A DNA stretch of 40,767 nt from Minwuia sp. GTDB taxonomy: Bacteria; Pseudomonadota; Alphaproteobacteria; Minwuiales; Minwuiaceae. Position 1 is the first letter of the stretch. The number at the start of each line of letters is the position of its first letter. Positions 8,743 to 40,436 of this stretch are shown in pieces. Made by a program: the position numbers and the translations under genes. The stretch is taken from assembly GCA_029213165.1 (NCBI GenBank), contig JARGNO010000036.1, positions 1-40,767 on the forward strand, read 5' to 3'. Below the pieces are notes generated by a model. It was not told the origin of the DNA. It ran no database searches and worked only from the letters and a program-made list of their open reading frames with translations.

Positions 8743-9729
8743 TCAGATTCCGGTCACGAGCTGTTTCAGATCCGCTTCCGGTCGCGCACCATAGTGACTG
8801 ATGATCTCCGCAGCCGCCACGGCGCCGATCCGGCCCGCATCGACCAGACCGCGCCCCGATGTGACGCCGTGCAGGAAACCCGCAGCGAACAGGTCTCCCG
8901 CACCTGTCGTGTCCACAAGTGCGGTCGGGGGACTGGCCGGAACGTCGTGCACCCCGTCCGGGGCAACGATGACGCATCCCTTCTCGCTGCGGGTCAGTAC
9001 TGCCAACTGGACCTTGCCGCGGACGGCATCAAGCGCGGTTTCGAAGCTGTCGGTCTGATAGAGCGACATGATCTCCGCTTCATTCGCGAAGACAATGTCC
9101 AGCGGCCCTTCCACCAGTTCCAGGAACTCGGCCCTGTGGCGATCAACGCAGAAGGCGTCGGACAGGCTCATGGCCACCTGACGGCCCGCATCCCGGGCGA
9201 CACTGGCGGCACGGCGCATGGCCTGTTTGGCCAGGGGCTGATCCCAGAGGTATCCTTCGAGATATGTGATGCGTCCGCTGGCCACCAGGTCGGCATCCAC
9301 ATCATCGGGTCCGATCTCCGCACTCGCACCCAGGAACGTGTTCATGGTGCGCTGCGCATCGGGAGTCACCAGGATCAGGCAGCGCGCGGTCGCCGGACCG
9401 GGCTTTGCGGTCGGGGGGGCGTAGATGACGCCAGCGGCGCGGATGTCATGGGCGAAGACTTCACCGAGCTGGTCGTCCTGCACCCGGCCTATGAAGGCGG
9501 AGCGACCGCCAAGTGCTGCGACGCCCACAGCCGTATTGGCTGCGGAGCCGCCTGAATGCTCGACCCCCGGTCCCATCGCCCTGTAAAGGGTGGTTGCCTG
9601 GTCCTGGTCGATCAACTGCATGCCACCCTTGGCCAGGTCCCGCTCGGCCAGGAAGGCGTCGTCTGCATTGCTCAGGACATCGACGATAGCATTGCCCAGT
9701 GCCACCACGTCCAGGGTCGGTTCGGTCAT
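8743..9729 (-). CDS. PfkB-family carbohydrate/nucleoside kinase (adenosine kinase-like)
   Basis: A 328-residue ribokinase-fold protein. The N-terminal substrate region has GGSAANTAVGVAALGG (60-75) and the C-terminal signature is DTTGAGDLFAAGFL with catalytic base D279 and the anion hole TGAG. SLSDAFCVDRHR and FANEAEI are typical of the alphaproteobacterial adenosine kinase-like branch, but the substrate cannot be read from sequence. The ATG has GGAGA eight bases upstream. It is the first gene of a unit with the adenylate cyclase (30 bp gap) and diverges from the amidase gene; the shared promoter region is 9730-9812. Confidence 0.88.
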   Translation of the reverse strand: MTEPTLDVVALGNAIVDVLSNADDAFLAERDLAKGGMQLIDQDQATTLYRAMGPGVEHSGGSAANTAVGVAALGGRSAFIGRVQDDQLGEVFAHDIRAAGVIYAPPTAKPGPATARCLILVTPDAQRTMNTFLGASAEIGPDDVDADLVASGRITYLEGYLWDQPLAKQAMRRAASVARDAGRQVAMSLSDAFCVDRHRAEFLELVEGPLDIVFANEAEIMSLYQTDSFETALDAVRGKVQLAVLTRSEKGCVIVAPDGVHDVPASPPTALVDTTGAGDLFAAGFLHGVTSGRGLVDAGRIGAVAAAEIISHYGARPEADLKQLVTGI

Positions 9730-16410: not shown

Positions 16411-17370
16411 TCAGCGGTCGGACGGACTTTCGTCCTCCACCAGCATCGGTCGCCAGGCGAAGGGCGGCGTGGCTGACGGGTCTATCGTCACCATGACCGC
16501 GCCTACGTCCGGTGCGCCGGGAACTTCCAGCCGCCAGACATTGTCGACGCGGTTGTCGTTCCGGTCCCGCAATGGCCGATCCGTGCGGTAGTGGTGCGTG
16601 TCACCGTGGATCAGCAGCACCGGTCCGCCATAGGCCTGTGCGCCCCTGGTCAGCGCGTCCAGTGTCCGGACGAAACCGCGATCTCCCTTGTCACCCGGCA
16701 CGAACTCCGGGTTCGCGTGAATGGCAACGACAAGGGCGGGCGCCTTTTCCCTGATGGCGCGGGCGAAGGCGTGATCCAGCCATCTGATGTTTGCGTCATC
16801 CCTGGCGTCGAACAGTTTCTTCGGACCGACCTTGCGTTTCCTGCCGTTGCTCGAACCGACAACATGCGCCGTGGCGAAGATGACATGGCCCTCGGTCCAG
16901 AGCGCATTCTCCACCATTGCGGGTTCATGGCGGGCGTCCGACTGGCTGAGGTAGCTGCGGCGGTTGCGCCCGAAACTCACCGGTTCCGAGAAGAATATCT
17001 CCCGTATCCGTTGCAGGCGTTCGTGCGGGTCATACTCGCCCGCCTTCGCGCGATGGCAGTCGGTCCATTCATTGTCACCGGGGGTATAGAAAAGCGGGGC
17101 TTCGAAGCGGGTGAAGTGATCCCGCACGTTCAGGAAGGCCGCGTCGGTGCAGGGGGTGGATCCCGCCTTGATATCCCCGACATGGATCGAGAAGGCGGGG
17201 CGCTGTTCGTTGATGCGTTCGATCAGGCGCGCGAACAGCGCATCATCGCGGGGCATCAGGTAAGGCGTGTCGCCCAGCGCGGCAAACCTGACTTCCGGTT
17301 CCGCGACAGCGGGCAGCGCCCCGGCGAGAAGGGCGCCGAACGTCAGGCAGAATGCGATCCGGCGAAACAT
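16411..17370 (-). CDS. Exported calcineurin-like metallophosphoesterase
   Basis: A 319-residue protein with a signal peptide (1-23, cut after AVA). Metallophosphoesterase motifs appear in order: ALGDTPY (D34; the usual D-x-H histidine is absent, as in this GDTPY subgroup), IHVGDIKAG, TPGDNEWTDC, VAIHANPEF and LLIHGDTHHYR. It probably hydrolyses a phosphoester in the periplasm; the substrate is unknown. The ATG has GGAGG upstream. It converges with the second amt gene (12 bp apart) and lies 60 bp after the phage portal gene on the same strand. Confidence 0.8.
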   Translation of the reverse strand: MFRRIAFCLTFGALLAGALPAVAEPEVRFAALGDTPYLMPRDDALFARLIERINEQRPAFSIHVGDIKAGSTPCTDAAFLNVRDHFTRFEAPLFYTPGDNEWTDCHRAKAGEYDPHERLQRIREIFFSEPVSFGRNRRSYLSQSDARHEPAMVENALWTEGHVIFATAHVVGSSNGRKRKVGPKKLFDARDDANIRWLDHAFARAIREKAPALVVAIHANPEFVPGDKGDRGFVRTLDALTRGAQAYGGPVLLIHGDTHHYRTDRPLRDRNDNRVDNVWRLEVPGAPDVGAVMVTIDPSATPPFAWRPMLVEDESPSDR

Positions 17371-17430: not shown

Positions 17431-19050
17431 TCATGACACGGGCATGGCTTCCGGTGCCAGCAGGGGTGCCGAATCATTCATCTGCCCGGATTCCGCCCCA
17501 GGTGCCGCTGCCGAAAGGCCGAGCGGTGCGAGGGCGGCGGCAACGGACGCAAGGTCCGGCGTTTCGGCTTGTGTCAGGAACTCGGACGGGAAGCCATTGC
17601 GCTTCAGGAAGTCGCGCAGATAGCCGGCACGGTCGATGACCTGGTCGAGAAGATCGGGAAAGGCCGTTGCCGCCTGCATGTAGGCCCCCTGTGCGGCGGT
17701 GGCATCGGCGATCTCCTGCAGCCGGACCAGGGGCGAGGTGGGTTTCGGCCTGACCCGTTCGCCATCCACTTCGAACGGCGGCACGTAATAGGGCGATCCC
17801 ACCATGGCCGGGCTGGTGAGGATGGAAAGCACACGGTTGGCCAGCGGAAAGTCGAGTTCCGTCAGCAGGCGCAGCGACATGGGCAGTTCCACAGCCTCGA
17901 ACTCCTGCTGGCGGACATCGATCTCGAATGCCGTGCGTCCACCGGCATTCGCGGGCGGCAGTCCCGGCCCCATGATTGCGTCGCGGATACTGCGCTGCAG
18001 GTTCTCCAGCACAATCTGGCTGACGTCGAAGCGCCCCGGCGCATCCAGCGGCGTCAGGCCCTGTGATCCCACCGCCTTCGGAATGATGGCACCCGGCACG
18101 AGCTGGATGTTGGCGGGGTTCAGGACGCCGTCGTCCTCCGCCTGCCAGATGCCTGTCACGGCAATGGAAGCGTTCTTCAGGATCAGTTCGACAACCTTGT
18201 TGGCTGTCTTGATATCCGCCAGTGCATTCAGCACCGGTCCCCGACCCATCCATTCGCCGGGTGCCTTGTCCGTGCGAAAGGCAATTACGGGGGATGCTGA
18301 GAATGGACGCTGCAGCAACAGGTTCTCACCTGTTGCACCGGGCTGGGCCACACACCAGACCTCATAGACCGCAGGCGCACCGGGGTCATCGGCCAGAATG
18401 GCCTCGATCACCTCGATCTCCGTATCGGGCTGCTTCTCCGCGATCCCGGCCAGTTCGACCGGCAGTTCGGCATCGGGCCAGCGGGTGCGAATGCGGCGGG
18501 CCGGCAAGGACATCTGGCGGAAGACCGTGGCCAGCATGCCATCCCGGCCTTCTTCCGGTGTCAGCTCCTGGGCGGGGACGGCCTCGAAACGCAGCGGGCG
18601 GTTCAGCGAACCGGCGTGAACCATCAGCGCCCCGGTGGAGATCAGCGCATCACCAAGGGCCGGATCAATCTCGATGTGGAAGTTGGAGGCTTCGATGGCG
18701 CCGTGAAACTTCTCGCGCACTTCCGCCGCATAGAGGTCGAAAGCCTGCCGGGCTTTGGCATCATGCATCAGCGAATCCGGGGCTTCGAAGTCCATCCAGG
18801 ACTTGAAAGGCGGAAAGAGCTGGCCGTGCAGGCGTGCCTTCCGCCAATGCAGGGCCTGCACGGCGGTATTGTCGAAGACTTCCCGGTCCTTTCGCTGGCC
18901 CACCGTGCCGCCGCGCCGGGCCGCATGGTTCGGCAGGGCAAAGGCATAGGCGTCGTCAAGCAACTGGTCCCAGCTCTGGCGTCGCGCTGCGGCACGGGAG
19001 AAGCGCTGGAGCGTCTCTGACTGGAAACGGTCGCCACCTGAATGTTTCAT
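17431..19050 (-). CDS. T7-type phage portal (head-to-tail connector) protein, orphan
   Basis: A full-length 539-residue protein resembling podovirus portal proteins (T7 gp8 type, about 535 residues). The N-terminus has the family pattern: W-x-x-L-x-x-x-AYAFALPNH, then REVFDNTAVQALHWRKARLHGQLFPP and WMDFEAP. Mid-protein features are ALISTGALMVHAG, the clip/stem region WMGRGPVLNALADIKTANKVVELIL and GRTAFEIDVRQQEF. The portal forms the dodecameric DNA gate of a phage head. No terminase, capsid, scaffold, tail or integrase gene lies within the window; both neighbours are cellular genes. Base composition looks like the surroundings and the frame is intact. It is either a prophage relic or a captured gene. 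Confidence 0.8.
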   Translation of the reverse strand: MKHSGGDRFQSETLQRFSRAAARRQSWDQLLDDAYAFALPNHAARRGGTVGQRKDREVFDNTAVQALHWRKARLHGQLFPPFKSWMDFEAPDSLMHDAKARQAFDLYAAEVREKFHGAIEASNFHIEIDPALGDALISTGALMVHAGSLNRPLRFEAVPAQELTPEEGRDGMLATVFRQMSLPARRIRTRWPDAELPVELAGIAEKQPDTEIEVIEAILADDPGAPAVYEVWCVAQPGATGENLLLQRPFSASPVIAFRTDKAPGEWMGRGPVLNALADIKTANKVVELILKNASIAVTGIWQAEDDGVLNPANIQLVPGAIIPKAVGSQGLTPLDAPGRFDVSQIVLENLQRSIRDAIMGPGLPPANAGGRTAFEIDVRQQEFEAVELPMSLRLLTELDFPLANRVLSILTSPAMVGSPYYVPPFEVDGERVRPKPTSPLVRLQEIADATAAQGAYMQAATAFPDLLDQVIDRAGYLRDFLKRNGFPSEFLTQAETPDLASVAAALAPLGLSAAAPGAESGQMNDSAPLLAPEAMPVS

Positions 19051-19205
19051 GAGTAGAAATTCCTTTCACTGTTGCAACCTGAAAAGAATAGGTGGCTGAA
19101 ACGAACTGAGTTGTGCGCGCGCGAAGAATCCGGTGTGGGTACTCGACCTGACCGGAGACAGCGCTAGACTGCCGGAACAGGGCCAACACGACAGGGGAGC
19201 GGGCG

Positions 19206-20387
19206 ATGGGACTGATCGACGATGTGCGCAGGCAGCTTCAGGCGGACATGACCGACTGGCGGCGTGACATTCACAAGCATCCGGAGACAGCGTTCGAGGA
19301 GCACAGGACAGCCGACAAGGTCGCCGGGTTGCTCGAATCCTGGGGCCTGGAAGTCCACCGCGGCCTGGCCACCACCGGTGTCGTCGGTACCCTGAAGGCG
19401 GGAACCGGAAACCGGGCCATCGGCCTGCGTGCCGACATGGACGCACTGGACCTGACCGAATTGAACGGCTTTGACTACAAGAGTGTTCACGACGGAAAAA
19501 TGCATGCCTGTGGCCATGACGGGCACACGACCATGCTGCTTGGTGCCGCGCGCTATCTCGCCGAGAATCCGAACTTTGACGGCACCGTGCAGTTCATCTT
19601 CCAACCGGCGGAGGAGAACCTGGCCGGTGGTCGGGTGATGGTGCAGGAAGGCCTGTTCGAGAAGTTCCCGGTTGAAGCGGTCTACGGGATGCACAATTGG
19701 CCGGGCCTGCCGGTTGGCAGCTTCGCGGTCTGCACCGGGCCGATGATGGCATCGGCGGACTTCTTCGAACTGAAACTGACCGGTCGGGGCGGCCATGGGG
19801 CCTTTCCGCATCTGGCGAAGGATCCGATTGTTGCGGCGGCCCACGTCATCACCGCCTGGCAGACGCTTGTCAGTCGCGATACGGATCGGATGAAGGCAGC
19901 CGTGATCAGTGCCTGCGAGATCACTGCCGGCTTCACCGGCAATGTCATTCCGGAAACGGCCGTGGTCCGTGGCACGACCCGCACCTTCAACGAAGGTGTG
20001 CAGGACATGATCGAGAAACGGATGCGCGAAGTCGCTGACGGTATCGCGCAGGCCTTCGGCATGCAGGCCGAGTTCACCTATGACCGCCGCTATGCGCCCA
20101 CCGTGAACACGCCGGAGGAGACGGGCCATGCCGTCGCCGCGGCGCATGAGGTCGTCGGCGCGGAGAACGTCAACGACAAGCTGGTTCCCGTCATGGGCGC
20201 GGAAGACTTCGGCTGGATGTTGCGGGAGCGTCCCGGATGCTACATGTTCGTCGGCAATGGTGAGGGCGAGGGCGGTGGCTGCGAGGTTCACAACCCGAAC
20301 TACGATTTCAATGACGAGACATTACCGGTCGGCGCCGCCTATTGGGTCAAGCTGGTGGAGATGCAGTTGCCTGCAGCCGATGGGTGA
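19206..20387 (+). CDS. M20-family amidohydrolase (hippurate hydrolase-like)
   Basis: A 393-residue zinc/manganese aminoacylase-type hydrolase. Metal ligands and catalytic residues are visible: RADMDALDL, HACGHDGH (H100-H107, with the metal-binding C102), QPAEEN (E136-E137), MHNWPG and GAEDFGWML. The central lid domain carries GRGGHGAFPH. It probably removes an acyl group from an N-acyl amino acid or opens a related amide. The ATG at 19206 has GGGGAG upstream. It diverges from the portal gene; the promoter should lie in 19051-19205. Confidence 0.92.
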   Translation: MGLIDDVRRQLQADMTDWRRDIHKHPETAFEEHRTADKVAGLLESWGLEVHRGLATTGVVGTLKAGTGNRAIGLRADMDALDLTELNGFDYKSVHDGKMHACGHDGHTTMLLGAARYLAENPNFDGTVQFIFQPAEENLAGGRVMVQEGLFEKFPVEAVYGMHNWPGLPVGSFAVCTGPMMASADFFELKLTGRGGHGAFPHLAKDPIVAAAHVITAWQTLVSRDTDRMKAAVISACEITAGFTGNVIPETAVVRGTTRTFNEGVQDMIEKRMREVADGIAQAFGMQAEFTYDRRYAPTVNTPEETGHAVAAAHEVVGAENVNDKLVPVMGAEDFGWMLRERPGCYMFVGNGEGEGGGCEVHNPNYDFNDETLPVGAAYWVKLVEMQLPAADG

Positions 20388-21474: not shown

Positions 21475-22077
21475 CTAGGCTTCGATACCCAGGTTCATTC
21501 CCTGCGCCGCATCCGCCATGTAGATCGAACTCTTCGGCTTCTCGAACACGCGATGCACCATCGGCCGGAAATCATCCAGCTTCATTGACTCGTAGGCCGG
21601 GTCAAAGGCGGGTGCGTCATAGCGTTCGCAGAAGATTGCGGTCTTCTCGAAATCCGCATGGCCCCGGAACTGTTCACGCATGTCGCGATCCAGGCCGAGA
21701 TGCTGGAAGAAGTAATAGCCCTGGAAGATGCCATGCTGTGCCACCATCCAGTGATTGGACTCTGAAACGAATGGTTTCAGCACCGTCGCGGCCATGTCGG
21801 CGTGATTGTAGGAACACAGCAGGTCGCCGATGTCGTGCAGCAGCGCGGCGACGACATATTCCTCGTCTTCGCCCGCCTTGTGGGCGCGGGTTGCCGTCTG
21901 CAGGCTGTGCTCCAGCCGGTCCACCTGAAAGCCGCCGTAGTCACCGCCCAGCAGTTCCAGATGCGCCAGCAGACGATCCGGCAGCCCGGCGCTGAACGGC
22001 TTGTAGTGGCTGCCGATGATCTTCCAGTCCTCGGCGGTGCCGTCCGCCATGTCGGTAAAGCGTGCGCTGTCTGCCAT
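21475..22077 (-). CDS. HD-domain protein, PhnZ-like
   Basis: A 200-residue HD-domain protein. Likely metal ligands are H57 (RLEHSLQ), H81-D82 (LLHDIGD), H92 (YNHADM), H109 and H115 ([10 protein letters not shown]). The pattern Y47[10 protein letters not shown] resembles the di-iron oxygenase PhnZ, in which a Tyr and a Glu three residues later lie at the active site; here the tyrosine is kept and the glutamate position is Phe50. It may thus be a mixed-valence di-iron oxygenase of the MIOX/PhnZ group rather than a phosphohydrolase. No phosphonate genes are nearby. The ATG at 22077 (GGTGGGAA upstream) diverges from the acyl-CoA dehydrogenase gene. Confidence 0.7.
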
Positions 22078-22175
22078 TGGTTCGTTCCCACCCCGTTGCG
22101 TTGACCCGGTTTGCAGTGTCCAGTATCTCCGGTGCGGTGGCCTTCGGGCAAGGCGCATCGACGGGGGAGGTAAAG

Positions 22176-23312
22176 ATGACCGGGTTGACCGAGGACCAGA
22201 TCGCGTTTCAGGACGCTGCGCGCAGCTTCGCGCAGGCGGAAATGGAACCCCATGCCGCGCAGTGGGACGAGGAGAAGATCTTCCCCGAGGACACGCTGCG
22301 CCAGGCCGCCGAACTCGGCTTTGCCGGCATCTATGTCGACCCCGCGCACGGTGGATCGGGCCTGACCCGCGTCGATGCTGCGGTGATCTTCGAGGAACTG
22401 GCGGCCGGCTGCACCTCCACCGCCGCCTATATCTCCATCCACAACATGGCGAGCTGGATGATCGACCGGTTCGGCGATGACGCGGTGCGGGCGAAGTTCC
22501 TGCCAAGGCTCTGTTCGATGGAGTGGTTCGCCAGCTATTGCCTGACGGAGGCGGGGGCAGGCTCCGACGCCGCCAGCCTGAAGACGAAGGCGGTGCGCGA
22601 CGGCGACCACTATGTGCTGAACGGCGCCAAGGCCTTCATCTCCGGCGGCGGACGCTCCGACGTCTATGTGGTCATGGTGCGAACCGGCGAGGCAGGGCCG
22701 AAGGGCGTCACCTGCATCGCGGTCGAGAAGGACACGCCCGGCCTCAGCTTCGGCGCGCAGGAGCGCAAGATGGGCTGGAACTCCCAACCCACAGCGATGG
22801 TCATGTTCGACGATTGCCGCGTGCCGGTTTCGAACCGCATCGGTGACGAGGGGCAGGGCTTCAGCATTGCCATGGCCGGTCTGGACGGCGGACGCATCAA
22901 TATCGGTGCCTGTTCCATCGGTGCGGCGCGCGCGTCGCTGGAGCGGACCATCACCTACGTCAAGGACCGCAAGCAGTTCGGCCAGGCCATCGCCGGGTTC
23001 CAGAACACCCAGTTCAAGCTGGCCGACATGGCGACGGAACTGGAGGCGGCACGGATGATGATCCACGGCGCGGCGGCCAAGCTCGACGCCGGTGCGGCCG
23101 ACAAGACCGTCGCCTGCGCCATGGCCAAGCGCTTCGCCACCGACACGGGTTTCAACGTCTGCAACGATGCGCTGCAACTGCATGGCGGCTACGGCTACCT
23201 GCGCGACCACCCGATCGAACGCTACATGCGCGACTGCCGCGTCCACCAGATCCTGGAAGGCACCAACGAGATCATGCGCGTGGTGATCAGCAGGCAATTG
23301 CTGAAGGACTGA
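22176..23312 (+). CDS. Acyl-CoA dehydrogenase, isobutyryl-CoA dehydrogenase type
   Basis: A 378-residue flavoprotein that introduces the alpha-beta double bond into a short acyl-CoA and passes electrons to ETF. Motifs include [74 protein letters not shown] and the catalytic base E361 in [22 protein letters not shown] and the overall pattern fit isobutyryl-CoA dehydrogenase (ACAD8) of valine breakdown. The ATG at 22176 has a strong GGGGGAGG; an upstream extension of the frame is not conserved. Confidence 0.85.
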
Positions 23313-28729: not shown

Positions 28730-29185
28730 ATGAGTACGGCAACGGGGACCATCACCGAAAAGGGCAAGACCTGGTCTCTGGATGACATCGAGGTCGGGAT
28801 GGTCGGCAGCTACACCGCCGAAGTGACGGAAGACCTGATCCAGGCCTTTGCCGACGCATCCGGTGACGACAATCCGCTGCACCTGGACGAGGATTACGCG
28901 AAGACGACGATGTTCAAGGGCCGCATCGCCCACGGCATGCTGTCGGCCAGTTTCCTGTCGACCATCTTCGGCACCATCTTCCCCGGACCGGGCTGCATCT
29001 ACATGTCCCAGAACGTGAAGTTCACGGCGCCGGTCCGTATCGGCGATGTCGTGACCGCGACGGCAGAGGTCGATGAGGTCATGACCGACAAGGGACGGGT
29101 GCATTTCAATTGCGTGTGCATGGCAGGCGACAGGAAAGTCGTTGTCGGCGATGCCTGGATCATGCCGGCTCGTCGGGGCAAGTGA
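28730..29185 (+). CDS. MaoC-like (R)-specific enoyl-CoA hydratase
   Basis: A 151-residue hotdog-fold hydratase. The catalytic dyad lies in FADASGDDNPLHLDEDYA (Asp and His of the hydratase-2 motif) with IAHGMLSASFLSTI following; SQNVKFTAPVRIGDVV and TATAEV complete the fold. PhaJ-type enzymes link beta-oxidation to (R)-3-hydroxyacyl-CoA, the polyhydroxyalkanoate precursor; no PHA genes are seen here, so that role is inference. The ATG at 28730 has GGAGGAGCGGCAAGG upstream. The ribF start lies 9 bp after its stop. Confidence 0.88.
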   Translation: MSTATGTITEKGKTWSLDDIEVGMVGSYTAEVTEDLIQAFADASGDDNPLHLDEDYAKTTMFKGRIAHGMLSASFLSTIFGTIFPGPGCIYMSQNVKFTAPVRIGDVVTATAEVDEVMTDKGRVHFNCVCMAGDRKVVVGDAWIMPARRGK

Positions 29186-29193
29186 CCGGCGAC

Positions 29194-30132
29194 ATGCGTA
29201 TCGCCAGACTGAGCGGTGTTGCTCCGGCGGAGAGCCGCGGTGCTGCTGTGGCGATCGGCAATTTCGATGGCGTGCACCGTGGGCATCGCGTGCTCATTTC
29301 CCGGGCGCAGCAGATCGCCGCGACGCTGGGTTGTCCCGCCGGTGTCCTGACGTTCGAGCCGCATCCCCGGGAGTATTTCGCGGCCAGGGCCCCCGCCTTT
29401 CGCCTGACCAATTTCCGCGCCAAGGCCATGAGCCTGTGTGATGCCGGGGTCGAGGTCATGGCCGTTGCCCCCTTCGGTCGGGCGATGGCCGAAATGAGCG
29501 CCAACACGTTCATCGACGAGGTTCTGGTCCGGCGACTGGGTGTGGCGCATGTCGTTGTTGGCTATGACTTCGCGTTCGGCCACAAGCGGGCCGGGAACGT
29601 GGCGCATCTGCAGGTCATGGGACGGGAACGCGGTTTCGGTGTCACGGTTGTGGAGCCGGTACGCGAGGGGGAGGAAGTGTTTTCCTCGACCCGTATCCGC
29701 GACGCACTCTGGCAAGGCGCGCCACGCCGTGCCTCGGCACTGCTGGGGCATGACTGGGAAGTGCATGGGCGGATCATCAAGGGCGACCAGCGCGGGCGGA
29801 CCATCGGATTTCCCACAGCCAATGTGGCGCTGGGCGGCTACATCGAACCGCAGTTCGGTGTCTATGCCGTCCGCATCGGCTGGGAGGAAGACGGGAAGAC
29901 TGTCTGGCATGGCGGCGTCGCCAATCTTGGCCGACGTCCGACCTTCGACAAGTCCGATGTCCTGCTTGAAGTACACGTGCTGGATTTCGCGGGTGACCTC
30001 TATGGTCGCCATGCCCGGGTGCGGTTCCTGGACTTCATCAGGCCGGAGCAGAAGTTCGACGGCCTCGATTCACTCAAGGCGCAGATCGCGGCCGATGCGG
30101 ACAGCGCGCGGAAGATCCTCGCGTCGTCCTGA
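29194..30132 (+). CDS. ribF: Bifunctional riboflavin kinase/FMN adenylyltransferase RibF
   Basis: A 312-residue enzyme that makes FMN and then FAD from riboflavin. The N-terminal adenylyltransferase has AIGNFDGVHRGHRVLI (HxGH-type site), TFEPHPREYF, VVVGYDFAFGHKR and SSTRIRDAL. The C-terminal kinase has GRIIKGDQRGRTIGFPTANV, GVYAVRIG and VANLGRRPTF. The ATG at 29194 is chosen; a GTG at 29182 overlapping the MaoC stop is also possible. FAD supply suits the many flavoproteins nearby (acyl-CoA dehydrogenases, UbiH-like, sarcosine oxidase). Confidence 0.96.
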   Translation: MRIARLSGVAPAESRGAAVAIGNFDGVHRGHRVLISRAQQIAATLGCPAGVLTFEPHPREYFAARAPAFRLTNFRAKAMSLCDAGVEVMAVAPFGRAMAEMSANTFIDEVLVRRLGVAHVVVGYDFAFGHKRAGNVAHLQVMGRERGFGVTVVEPVREGEEVFSSTRIRDALWQGAPRRASALLGHDWEVHGRIIKGDQRGRTIGFPTANVALGGYIEPQFGVYAVRIGWEEDGKTVWHGGVANLGRRPTFDKSDVLLEVHVLDFAGDLYGRHARVRFLDFIRPEQKFDGLDSLKAQIAADADSARKILASS

Positions 30133-37541: not shown

Positions 37542-38225
37542 ATGCATATCGAACCCGGTGTCGTTGATGGCGCCAGGATAATCCTCAGCTATGGCACGGC
37601 GGCTGCGTCCGTTGGCCTGCTCGGCAAGATGGCGCTGGATACCATTCGTCACGATGGTGGGGTTACCGCTCTGGCCACACGCAGTCTGGCAACGACAGCC
37701 CTGGTCTTCTGCTTCTTCGAACTGCTGCCGCATTATCCGGTCGGGGTGTCGGAGGTTCACCTGATCCTTGGCTCCACCCTGTTCCTGATCTTCGGCGCGG
37801 GTCCGGCAGCGATTGGCCTGTCGCTCGGATTGCTGTTGCAGGGCTTGCTGCTGGCACCTTTCGACCTGCCGCAGTACGGCATGAACATCACCACGCTGGT
37901 GGTGCCGCTCTGGGGCCTGAGCCTGCTGGCGCGGAAGATCATTCCGGCGCGGACGCCCTACGTCGAGGTGAAGTACTGGCAGGCACTGGCGCTCTCCACT
38001 GCCTATCAGGGCGGAATTGTCGCCTGGGTTGCCTTCTGGGCCTTCTACGGCAACGGTTTCGGTGCGGAGAGCCTGGCATCCGTTGGTACCTTCGGCGCCG
38101 CTTACATGACCGTCATTCTGGTGGAGCCGCTGGTGGACCTGGCCGTTCTTGCGCTGGCCAAGGGGCTGACCCCGCGCGCGAATGGTCCTCTGTTTCAGAA
38201 CCGGCTGCATCACGCCGCAGCCTGA
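37542..38225 (+). CDS. CbiM-like cobalt/metal transport membrane protein
   Basis: A 227-residue membrane protein with about six hydrophobic helices. It resembles the CbiM/NikM energy-coupling-factor substrate-capture family: it begins MHIEPG, where the free Met-His N-terminus binds the metal ion, and has HYPVGVSEVHLILGSTLF, GLLLQGLLLAPFDLPQYGMNITTL. The start at 37542 is decided by this MHI sequence and by AAGGAGG four bases upstream; an ATG-less start at 37524 would bury the histidine. The B12 riboswitch upstream supports a cobalt role. CbiN, CbiQ and CbiO are not adjacent; the next gene is on the opposite strand. Confidence 0.85.
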   Translation: MHIEPGVVDGARIILSYGTAAASVGLLGKMALDTIRHDGGVTALATRSLATTALVFCFFELLPHYPVGVSEVHLILGSTLFLIFGAGPAAIGLSLGLLLQGLLLAPFDLPQYGMNITTLVVPLWGLSLLARKIIPARTPYVEVKYWQALALSTAYQGGIVAWVAFWAFYGNGFGAESLASVGTFGAAYMTVILVEPLVDLAVLALAKGLTPRANGPLFQNRLHHAAA

Positions 38226-38234
38226 TGTGCCCCG

Positions 38235-38264
38235 CCTTCCCGGTGCATTGCTGTGCCGGGAAGG
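38235..38264. terminator. Convergent-gene hairpin after the CbiM-like gene
   Basis: CCTTCCCGG (38235-38243) pairs perfectly with CCGGGAAGG (38256-38264) and can extend inward by four weaker pairs to a TTGC loop. It is placed between convergent stops at 38225 and 38268. No long T-run follows on either strand, so it is likely but not certain as a terminator for both. Confidence 0.5.
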
Positions 38265-38267
38265 TGA

Positions 38268-38570
38268 TCAGGTCTTGTCGAAGGTGCCCGTCAGCTTGCT
38301 GATGGGGTCATCCATGAACAGCAGTTCGCACCGTTCCCCGGCAACCTTGCGGGCCTGCGCCTCTGTCAGGTCGGTCCTGGTTCCAACTGCGTTGGTCAGC
38401 GCATCGACGCAATGTGTTCTGGCCTGTGCCAGGGCAAGGGACTGGTTCTGTTCCGCTGTCGGCGCGACTGGCGTCACGGCGAACGGAGTCATTGCAGACA
38501 TCGCCACGCCACAAAATGTGACACAGAAAGTGACTGCGATCAGAATCCGTCGTGTGCGTCGGGTCGACAT
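38268..38570 (-). CDS. Small hypothetical exported/membrane-anchored protein
   Basis: A 100-residue protein with a basic N-terminus (MSTRRTRRIL) and one hydrophobic segment (about 9-32) that may be a signal anchor. A short polar domain follows, rich in Ala/Thr/Gln (EQNQSLALAQARTHC) with two cysteines (C about 54 and 78) that could pair outside the cell. The family is not recognised. The ATG at 38570 is chosen because it gives a normal signal-type start; a longer frame to 38693 exists. 38571-38844 holds no gene; it contains a 14-bp palindrome TCCCCGCGCGGGGA (38798-38811). Confidence 0.55.
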   Translation of the reverse strand: MSTRRTRRILIAVTFCVTFCGVAMSAMTPFAVTPVAPTAEQNQSLALAQARTHCVDALTNAVGTRTDLTEAQARKVAGERCELLFMDDPISKLTGTFDKT

Positions 38571-38844
38571 GCCTTGGCAAGCTTCCTCAAAGGGGGCGTT
38601 GGTGCCTCTTGAGACAGGACACCGCAAATGCCAGGCCAGAATTCCAAGCACATCATGGCGACATGTTGAAGTTAACGGAATGACCGGGGTCACAACACGT
38701 CAACGAATTATCAACCATTCGGGTTTCGTGGCGCGAGGTGCGGCAGATCGCCTGAAAATTGTGGAATTGCCCTGGTGGCGATGCTACGCCCGACTGGTCC
38801 CCGCGCGGGGAGCCTGACCTGAAAGCAGTTATCCAGAGGATGAT

Positions 38845-39821: not shown

Positions 39822-40436
39822 ATGACTGATCTCAATTTCTCCGCGCTGCTCTGTTCACGTCTCTGCCACGATCTGGTCGGTCCGATTGGTGCTCTGTCCA
39901 ATGGTATCGAACTCATCGAACTGGAAGATGACCCGACCATGGCGGTGGACGCGCTGGACCTGCTGAAGATGTCTGCGGGCAATGCGGCCACCCGGCTGAA
40001 GTTTCTCCGCCTCGTGTTCGGGGCTTCTGGTGGTGACGCCATGCCGCTGGCGGTGTCGGAGGCGCGGGCGACCACGCTCGAGTTCTACGCCGATCACCGG
40101 CTGAAGATCGACTGGCCAGCCAGCGATGGTCCGGACCCGGAAAAGAACCGTGTGCGCTTGCTGCTGAACATGATCATGACGGCGGCATTCGGCATGGTGC
40201 GGGGCGGAGTGCTTTCCGTGGTGCTGGCCGACGACGAGCTGCGTGTCGTCGCGGAGCACGAGCGTGCCGAACTGCCGGAAGAAGTCCTGACAGCCCTGTC
40301 GGGCGCGCGTTCCGCCACGACGGTCGAGGATGCCCGGATCATCGAGGCGTTTCATGCCGGCCTGCTGGCCCGGGCGTCCGGAATGACCTTGCACACGGAG
40401 AAGGGCGAGGGCCGGTTTGTCATTTCCGCATCCTGA
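39822..40436 (+). CDS. chpT: ChpT-type histidine phosphotransferase
   Basis: A 204-residue protein of the ChpT family. In alphaproteobacteria ChpT carries phosphate from the hybrid kinase CckA to the cell-cycle regulators CtrA and CpdR. The helical hairpin starts with ALLCSRLCHDLVGPIGALSNGIELIE, in which H16 is the phosphorylated histidine. The C-terminal half is a degenerate ATPase-like fold (NRVRLLLNMIMTAAFGMVRGG, EKGEGRFVIS) without ATP motifs. It supports the alphaproteobacterial assignment of the window. Confidence 0.9.
   Translation: MTDLNFSALLCSRLCHDLVGPIGALSNGIELIELEDDPTMAVDALDLLKMSAGNAATRLKFLRLVFGASGGDAMPLAVSEARATTLEFYADHRLKIDWPASDGPDPEKNRVRLLLNMIMTAAFGMVRGGVLSVVLADDELRVVAEHERAELPEEVLTALSGARSATTVEDARIIEAFHAGLLARASGMTLHTEKGEGRFVISAS

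Follow-up and report, generated by a model that had tools for sequence, protein, structure and literature searches.

A T7-type portal gene among cellular genes of Minwuia is probably part of a scattered, domesticated phage particle

Introduction

Why should a bacterium keep a full-length phage portal gene among its metabolic genes? The question is raised by a contig of Minwuia sp. (JARGNO010000036.1), of which the whole stretch of 40,767 nucleotides, here called the window, was analyzed. The initial annotation had offered three explanations for the gene, i.e. capture, a dispersed system resembling a gene transfer agent (GTA), or a role unrelated to phage. Among these, the dispersed GTA-like system is the one backed by the evidence presented here.

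According to a review, GTAs seem to have arisen repeatedly in evolution, and they are mistaken for prophages (PMC11841831). Three types, named after RcGTA, Bartonella, and Brachyspira, have been proposed as viriform families (PMC9662315). Among Alphaproteobacteria, GTAs of the RcGTA type are the best known; Table 3 of one survey records none of that type in several orders in which we found a T7-type set (PMC6821227). If the reading given below is right, a T7-type counterpart would mean that DNA-transfer particles arose from phages more than once in this class, with another type of phage as the source. The scattering of the genes in Minwuia makes the question why cells keep GTAs directly testable through single genes.

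Results

An intact T7-type portal gene and its flanks

The locus comprises the following features:

17431..19050, minus strand: T7-type portal (head-to-tail connector) gene, 539 aa, the sole PF12236 match in the genome
17386..17425, minus strand: inverted repeat with 14-bp perfect arms and a 12-nt loop, candidate terminator (hairpin without T run)
16411..17370, minus strand: neighbor protein gene, probably outside the system; its homologue in genome G003 weakly matches Metallophos (PF00149)
19051..19205, no strand: divergent intergenic region between the portal and M20 peptidase genes, putative portal promoter region
19206..20387, plus strand: M20 peptidase gene, cellular neighbor, conserved portal flank across the genus

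The gene is intact, as the initial annotation had read it; the portal frame runs from the ATG at 19050 to the stop at 17431 without internal stop. In a Pfam scan, PF12236 matched residues 12-492 (E = 3.7e-74) with 250.4 bits against a curated cut-off of 27, which places the protein in this family; a PHROG scan gave phrog_332 (E = 2.9e-58). None of 14 control genomes had a PF12236 match. When a profile of the portal and its relatives was compared with solved structures, the best match was 9efk of phage LME-1 (E = 1.1e-58), and the T7 portal 6r21 was matched over nearly the full length of the Minwuia protein (residues 14-515, E = 2e-17). An AlphaFold model aligned with T7-type portals at VIA-align Z values of 18-22; since this model is weak (mean pLDDT 57.4), the identification is carried by the sequence. 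In sequence and fold, the portal is like those of T7-type phages (T7, LME-1, MEP301, and Pelagibacter phage EXVC031P).

The gene had also been called compositionally like its surroundings. This was so for GC (0.646, inside the range of seven neighbor genes, 0.609-0.654) but not quite for GC3 (0.759, slightly under their range of 0.765-0.859). The claimed lack of phage genes around it was borne out: a Pfam scan of 27 other ORFs of the window yielded no phage family. These 27 were taken from 153 listed ORFs, many of them small, and leave out the antisense ORF at 21777-23297, itself without a Pfam match. Four of the 27 had no Pfam family (16411-17370, 34-744, 28999-30012, and 38182-38817). All neighbors with Pfam matches were cellular, i.e. 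ammonium transporters, the M20 peptidase, Lactamase_B_2, acyl-CoA dehydrogenase, methionine synthase-type, Obg, an amino acid kinase with PUA domain, amidase, sarcosine oxidase-type, and other genes. PHROG matches of the portal neighbors were to unnamed or metabolic-type families, none of them structural. About 21 kb from the portal, at 39822-40436, lies a histidine phosphotransferase gene (PF10090), which we take to be ChpT-like. The CtrA phosphorelay controls RcGTA; the closeness of this gene to the portal is probably due to chance.

The inverted repeat begins 5 bases beyond the portal stop codon. Its fold has a z value of -5.1, and none of 200 shuffled sequences was equally stable. A consensus scan for terminators downstream of the portal reported no site because no T run follows the hairpin. 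The hairpin suggests that the portal may be transcribed on its own. Its promoter is presumed to lie in 19051..19205, where a consensus scan found no sigma-70-like match.

The portal was present in all seven Minwuia genomes, the other six copies being 72-94% identical to that of the window, and in neither of two genomes from other genera of the same family. Synteny was kept as well, the portal being flanked by the M20 peptidase gene across the genus. Neither of the two findings that had been named as arguments against the initial annotation, a prophage close by and a decaying copy in a single strain, was encountered: beside the portal no prophage was seen in the seven genomes (about 3 to 10 kb per side, less at contig ends), and the portal frames of all seven are open.

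A homologue of the gene at 16411..17370 adjoins the portal in six of the seven genomes. In the seventh, G006, about 1,040 bases that are present in G003 have been deleted, and with them this metallophosphoesterase-like gene, which was therefore rejected as a partner of the portal. The deleted segment corresponds to L020:10463-11505 and is missing from L021 (junction 9046-9066), with flanks 96% identical. The deletion reaches about 44 bases upstream of the portal stop codon in G003, and some 14 codons at the end of the gene are thereby replaced in G006; these lie in the poorly conserved tail of the protein, and the frame is still open.

Other particle genes in the same genomes

The supposition that just this one phage gene had been retained proved wrong. 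Capsid, scaffold, tail tube, nozzle, fiber, and terminase genes were detected on other contigs of the same genome, and the genome search proposed earlier for terminase and capsid genes found both in all seven Minwuia genomes (the terminase of G005 being a contig-edge fragment).

The major capsid gene (PF19821) occurs as a single copy in each of the seven genomes. Its locus contains, in all of them, homologues of a 102-aa gene, the tail tube, the nozzle, and an approximately 163-aa gene; capsid, tail tube, nozzle, and the two small protein genes form an operon. The tail tube was identified through its homologue in G010 (phrog_394), and the nozzle is phrog_376. In the five genomes with contigs long enough to include it, a T7-type fiber gene begins about 4 kb away from the capsid gene; the copy scanned, from the window genome, matched PF03906. 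After the tail operon and on the same strand, a response regulator and a histidine kinase gene were noted in 5/7 genomes (L128:3395-5616).

The scaffold profile had one match per genome (7/7; PF05396, E = 5.8e-9 for the copy of the window genome). Before the scaffold gene stands a small gene of 66-81 aa, presumably Bbp19-like, in all six genomes read (G005 left out), and in four of these six a 37-44 aa peptide with one hydrophobic stretch was also listed near the scaffold. In loci L054 and L121, portal and scaffold have a similar small gene between them; none was found in L087 and L108. The small protein s2, with conserved His and Cys residues, again had one profile match in each of the seven genomes. 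These residues had suggested a peptidoglycan hydrolase of permuted NlpC/P60 fold, a reading not backed by the s2 model, which matched no PDB entry at E 0.001 (best 0.27) and two nameless phage proteins in BFVD.

The large terminase (phrog_2, with a weak Terminase_6C match) has kept its Walker A (GHGVGKS) and Walker B (FDEAS) motifs and its nuclease aspartates in the five sequences aligned, as judged by motif reading. Further terminase-type matches were present in only two genomes (G003 and G006), which would fit the pattern expected of accessory prophages. The terminase is flanked by radical-SAM, enoyl-CoA hydratase, and pterin-binding enzyme genes, and all flanks scanned at the loci of the set were cellular (M20 peptidase, RPE65, DctP, ArsC, acyl-CoA ligase, HgmA, ZnuA, and others). 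Among these scanned neighbors there was no phage replication or integration gene, and neither a lysis gene nor a small terminase nor a common regulator was identified for the Minwuia set. The gene s1, known from clusters in other genera, had no match in the seven genomes in a profile search that had no positive control.

When the regions upstream of the portal, capsid, scaffold, terminase, and fiber genes were aligned, no promoter element common to them emerged, a result that is not firm because some start codons are uncertain. Before the capsid gene, the element CGGTAWAWWTACA is conserved in six of the seven genomes (L128:10657-10669 and other capsid loci) and is perhaps the promoter of this gene. 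It occurred in 13 of 261 loci, i.e. in 12 capsid loci (two overlapping loci in each of the six genomes) and once elsewhere; it was absent before the other genes of the set.

Scattering over the chromosome

In Minwuia genomes, the set occupies five or more separate loci among metabolic genes. On the single-contig 4.29-Mb chromosome of G002, these are the terminase (1.326 Mb), capsid (1.345 Mb), s2 (2.312 Mb), scaffold (2.822 Mb), and portal (2.951 Mb), which together span 1.6 Mb. In G006, the order is s2 (0.404 Mb), capsid (0.912 Mb), scaffold (0.957 Mb), portal (0.969 Mb), and terminase (0.977 Mb). Capsid, scaffold, portal, and terminase thus lie within about 68 kb in G006, as they do in G003, with metabolic genes between them; the terminase of the set is 7-8 kb from the portal in both. 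It is likely that a single cluster fell apart and that the break-up has gone farther in one of the two branches of the genus.

Separate loci, including those in two single-contig assemblies, are not the one contiguous excisable unit of an intact prophage. The set can therefore not be a hidden prophage, and selection at the level of the host must keep it. Given distances of up to 1.6 Mb between its genes, it is implausible that one particle takes up the whole set in the manner of a phage genome, so that any cargo would have to be host DNA. Programs that search for gene clusters will miss systems scattered in this way.

Purifying selection and a proposed mechanism

Nei-Gojobori dN and dS were calculated between the window genome and G001, and median dN/dS values were taken over the less saturated pairs. 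The test covered five of the seven terminases (G003 and G005 left out) and five fibers; scaffold and s2, whose frames are open, were left out. The results were as follows:

portal: dN 0.032, dS 0.554, median dN/dS 0.18
capsid: dN 0.029, dS 0.388, median dN/dS 0.15
tail tube: dN 0.033, dS 0.615, median dN/dS 0.24
nozzle: dN 0.061, dS 0.852, median dN/dS 0.26
terminase: dN 0.030, dS 0.304, median dN/dS 0.23
fiber: dN 0.172, dS 0.940, median dN/dS 0.63
cellular control M20 peptidase: dN 0.015, dS 0.591, median dN/dS 0.12
cellular control RPE65: dN 0.052, dS 0.808, median dN/dS 0.23
portal neighbor 16411-17370: dN 0.051, dS 0.326

No internal stops were present in the copies analyzed (seven each of portal, capsid, tube, and nozzle; five each of terminase and fiber). 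The dN/dS check suggested for the portal thus showed purifying selection, and the same holds for capsid, tube, nozzle, terminase, and fiber.

Phage-derived particle genes that are inherited with the host under purifying selection, as expected of a GTA, were hence found throughout the genus (7/7), and the major parts (terminase, portal, scaffold, capsid, and tail) are present. These findings point to the portal as a component of a domesticated T7-type particle built on the plan of a GTA, whose genes were probably scattered by rearrangement and are each kept by selection. In such a system, the scattered genes would be jointly expressed under a host signal. The capsid would assemble around the scaffold, one of its vertices being taken by the portal, and the terminase, its ATPase and nuclease residues intact, would pump DNA into the head. 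The cargo, judging from the scatter, would be host DNA, and tube, nozzle, and fiber would close the head and bind the recipient. We infer joint expression, particle assembly, packaging, release, and transfer of DNA from the list of parts, their conservation, and their scattering.

A domesticated particle with another task, e.g. phage interference or delivery of proteins, would be consistent with the same facts, and sequence does not disclose function. Tail-only devices, however, need no capsid, scaffold, portal, or terminase, and the retention of a portal together with a terminase that still has its Walker A, Walker B, and nuclease residues speaks for the packaging of DNA. We consider such another task unlikely.

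Relatives in other Alphaproteobacteria

Of 385 genomes sampled from the class, 101 had a match to the portal profile and 96 to the capsid family; the underlying alignment A1 contains rows from G010, G023, G029, G036, G039, and Minwuia, so that these genomes match inevitably. Forty-nine portals stood out by score (E = 3.4e-175 or better), and 47 of these 49 genomes also had the capsid family. Portal and capsid were on one contig in 34 genomes, within 10 kb in 27, at 11.8 kb in one, and at 57 kb to 1.6 Mb in six. As only two of these six are Minwuia, break-up of the cluster is not confined to this genus. In 13 genomes the two genes were on different contigs, which draft assemblies can also give. 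The portal match of G059 (G059:C2:1262473-1280802) consists of two pieces about 17 kb apart that jointly cover the profile, from either a split gene or an insertion.

For the compact form, 80 named loci among at least 533 confirmed ones were examined together with three more (83 in total). Their common order is a repressor-like gene on the opposite strand, s1, s2, portal, scaffold, capsid, an 89-aa gene, tail tube, nozzle, and fiber. Among the matches listed, a terminase was also present in 14 compact loci (phrog_38 in the one scanned), and the hosts included Thalassospira, Azospirillum, Rhodospira, Roseospira, Caenispirillum, Elioraea, and Micavibrio-type bacteria. In many loci, e.g. most of those from Azospirillum, the capsid gene lies beyond the 10 kb fetched.

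The clusters could be real temperate phages that repeatedly entered the same sites, with Minwuia holding an offshoot. The neighbors of the portal bear on this explanation. In the upstream 10 kb of the 83 loci, many of which are cut short, genes were found for (i) class I lysyl-tRNA synthetase (14 loci); (ii) class IV aminotransferase (19 loci); (iii) NAD kinase (16 loci); and (iv) SAICAR synthetase (13 loci). Genes (i), (iii), and (iv) never change their orientation with respect to the portal, which argues against repeated entry. The aminotransferase genes vary in distance and direction, which would suit temperate phages; because their direction is not constant, some of these matches may be due to chance. 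Portal divergence tracked each of the four flanking genes (Spearman 0.35, 0.70, 0.57, and 0.78; permutation p ≤ 0.023 in all four), again contrary to what repeated entry would give, and divergence of capsid and scaffold did so for three of four each (SAICAR synthetase p = 0.20 and p = 0.07, respectively). About 8 kb of upstream genes are common to L051-L054, four loci of Oleispirillum type that have some of the closest portals to those of Minwuia.

In favor of temperate phages, IMG/VR holds at least 468 confirmed portal relatives, of which 80 were kept (L154-L233), many of them compact clusters and often in records of about 16-20 kb. Related elements with large genes of internal-core type also exist: L056, L163, and L154 have two large genes behind the nozzle (535-778 aa) at the position of internal core proteins, one of which matches a PHROG family named 'head protein'. 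In the compact loci looked at, the following fiber match begins about 0.4 to 2.5 kb from the nozzle, which leaves no room for both large core-type genes. Some of the compact clusters in IMG/VR may be GTA-like loci rather than proviruses; in that case, compact T7-type systems would be sitting in virus collections as proviruses.

Conserved neighbors and parallel divergence are what vertical descent predicts, and descent of the clusters between orders is supported by them, not proven. Repeated entry of temperate phages therewith appears a rather improbable account. Alphaproteobacterial lineages beyond the classic RcGTA range may instead have their own ancient GTA family with fixed neighbors, of T7-type short-tailed phage origin and unrelated to RcGTA, of which Minwuia would carry a scattered and functional form with another terminase; on the comparisons made here, we give this wider proposal an even chance.

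Descent of the set in Minwuia

Whether the scattered genes of Minwuia are leftovers of one old T7-type prophage, rearranged and not yet lost, can be judged from their state. The scattering, the lack of an integrase or replication gene among the scanned neighbors, and the unmatched s1 (0/7, in the search that had no positive control) would agree with slow decay. Against it stand the retention of the particle genes in all seven genomes, the portals of which are only 72-94% identical to that of the window, and dN values far below dS in copies that lack internal stops. Slow decay is thus a very improbable explanation.

In the portal tree (96 rows; pieces of 380 residues or fewer, the Minwuia duplicates L048-L050, and 76 of the 80 viral loci left out), Minwuia groups with L051-L054 and L154, beside a large group of 76 rows. 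The capsid tree (66 rows; L027 and pieces of 200 residues or fewer left out) puts L051-L054 inside another supported group and has no supported position for Minwuia. This disagreement on the nearest relatives counts against a simple shared history; because long branches meet in both trees, deep placements are unsure. Within the genus, both trees contain the same three groups. At about 12.8-15.4 kb of L051-L054, between scaffold and capsid, there are conserved stretches of about 410-454 aa and of 319-439 aa (strand of the latter unsure), for which no named family was found.

The terminase of Minwuia (phrog_2 type) was also considered as an orthologue of that of the compact clusters (phrog_38 type). 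This was rejected, since BLAST found no match in the 80 loci; comparison of the two profiles gave one 72-column match with a probability of 34%. Outside Minwuia, the Minwuia terminase profile matched two of 45 genomes with close portals, both weakly, and one of the six genomes behind L051-L055 and L057, again weakly. Relatives of the Minwuia terminase adjoin portal genes in the viral contig L156, and in G256 such a relative, a portal, and a capsid lie within 6 kb. The terminase is thus tied to the set by its conservation, its cellular surroundings, its short distance from the portal in G003 and G006, and its relatives in L156 and G256, not by orthology. It is possible that the terminase was replaced, and also possible that the set came from a sister lineage of the phage.

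Separate capture of portal, capsid, scaffold, and terminase from different phages would account for the deviating terminase family and for the disagreement of the trees, but it is likewise a very improbable explanation, given the phage order kept for capsid, 102-aa gene, tail tube, and nozzle, that of the Bbp19-like gene and the scaffold, and the position of capsid, scaffold, portal, and terminase within about 68 kb in G003 and G006, as expected from a broken cluster.

Comparison with phages and known gene transfer agents

The Methylophilales phage MEP301 has its particle genes in the order known from the T7-type set, with portal, small genes, scaffold, and capsid followed by a further small gene, the tail tube, and the nozzle. 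MEP301 differs in having, in one genome, also genes for a small terminase, a single-strand binding protein, an internal virion protein, a holin, and a peptidase, whereas Minwuia has, as far as seen, scattered particle genes only.

RcGTA is siphovirus-like and has an HK97-type gene set. Like the Minwuia set, RcGTA (Rhodogtaviriformidae; also in Caulobacter) comprises phage-derived head, portal, terminase, and tail genes under purifying selection, and it occurs in many alphaproteobacteria. Unlike it, the Minwuia set has portal, scaffold, nozzle, and fiber genes of T7 type; its families are PF12236, PF05396, PF03906, and PF19821, the first three of which are named for T7-type proteins. BaGTA (Bartogtaviriformidae) and the Brachyspira GTA (Brachygtaviriformidae), compared by description only, are likewise domesticated elements (PMC9662315). 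For FpGTA of Faecalibacterium prausnitzii, particles, proteomics, and packaged bacterial DNA have been reported (PMC12946183). As described there, it is GTA-like and probably short-tailed, with structural genes in two separate operons, but it belongs to another phylum and its operons are compact and about 126 kb apart in one strain (PMC12946183). The Minwuia set lies at five or more places, some of them occupied by single genes. In the literature searched, mostly open-access papers outside bioRxiv, we found no description of a T7-type or podovirus-type GTA in Alphaproteobacteria. The T7-type set would hence represent a GTA variant for which we found no earlier description, with DNA transfer as its putative function.

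RcGTA-like clusters were recorded in 0/12 Azospirillales, 0/15 Rhodospirillales, and 0/34 Acetobacterales OTUs in Table 3 of the survey (PMC6821227). Many T7-type clusters, in contrast, occur in genera such as Azospirillum, Thalassospira, and Rhodospira. This separation is not sharp, as two MAGs with a T7-type cluster are labeled Methylocystaceae (L075 and L079); if this label is right, they belong to an order in which 52% of the OTUs have RcGTA-like clusters according to the same survey data (PMC6821227).

Genes of c-di-GMP signaling were observed inside some of the compact clusters. A GGDEF-EAL protein is encoded behind the scaffold in L122 (12812-15181) and seven other loci, mostly from Azospirillum, and a PilZ protein gene lies inside Micavibrio-type clusters (L074:14051-14437 and 15 other loci). 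These genes are possible regulators of the clusters.
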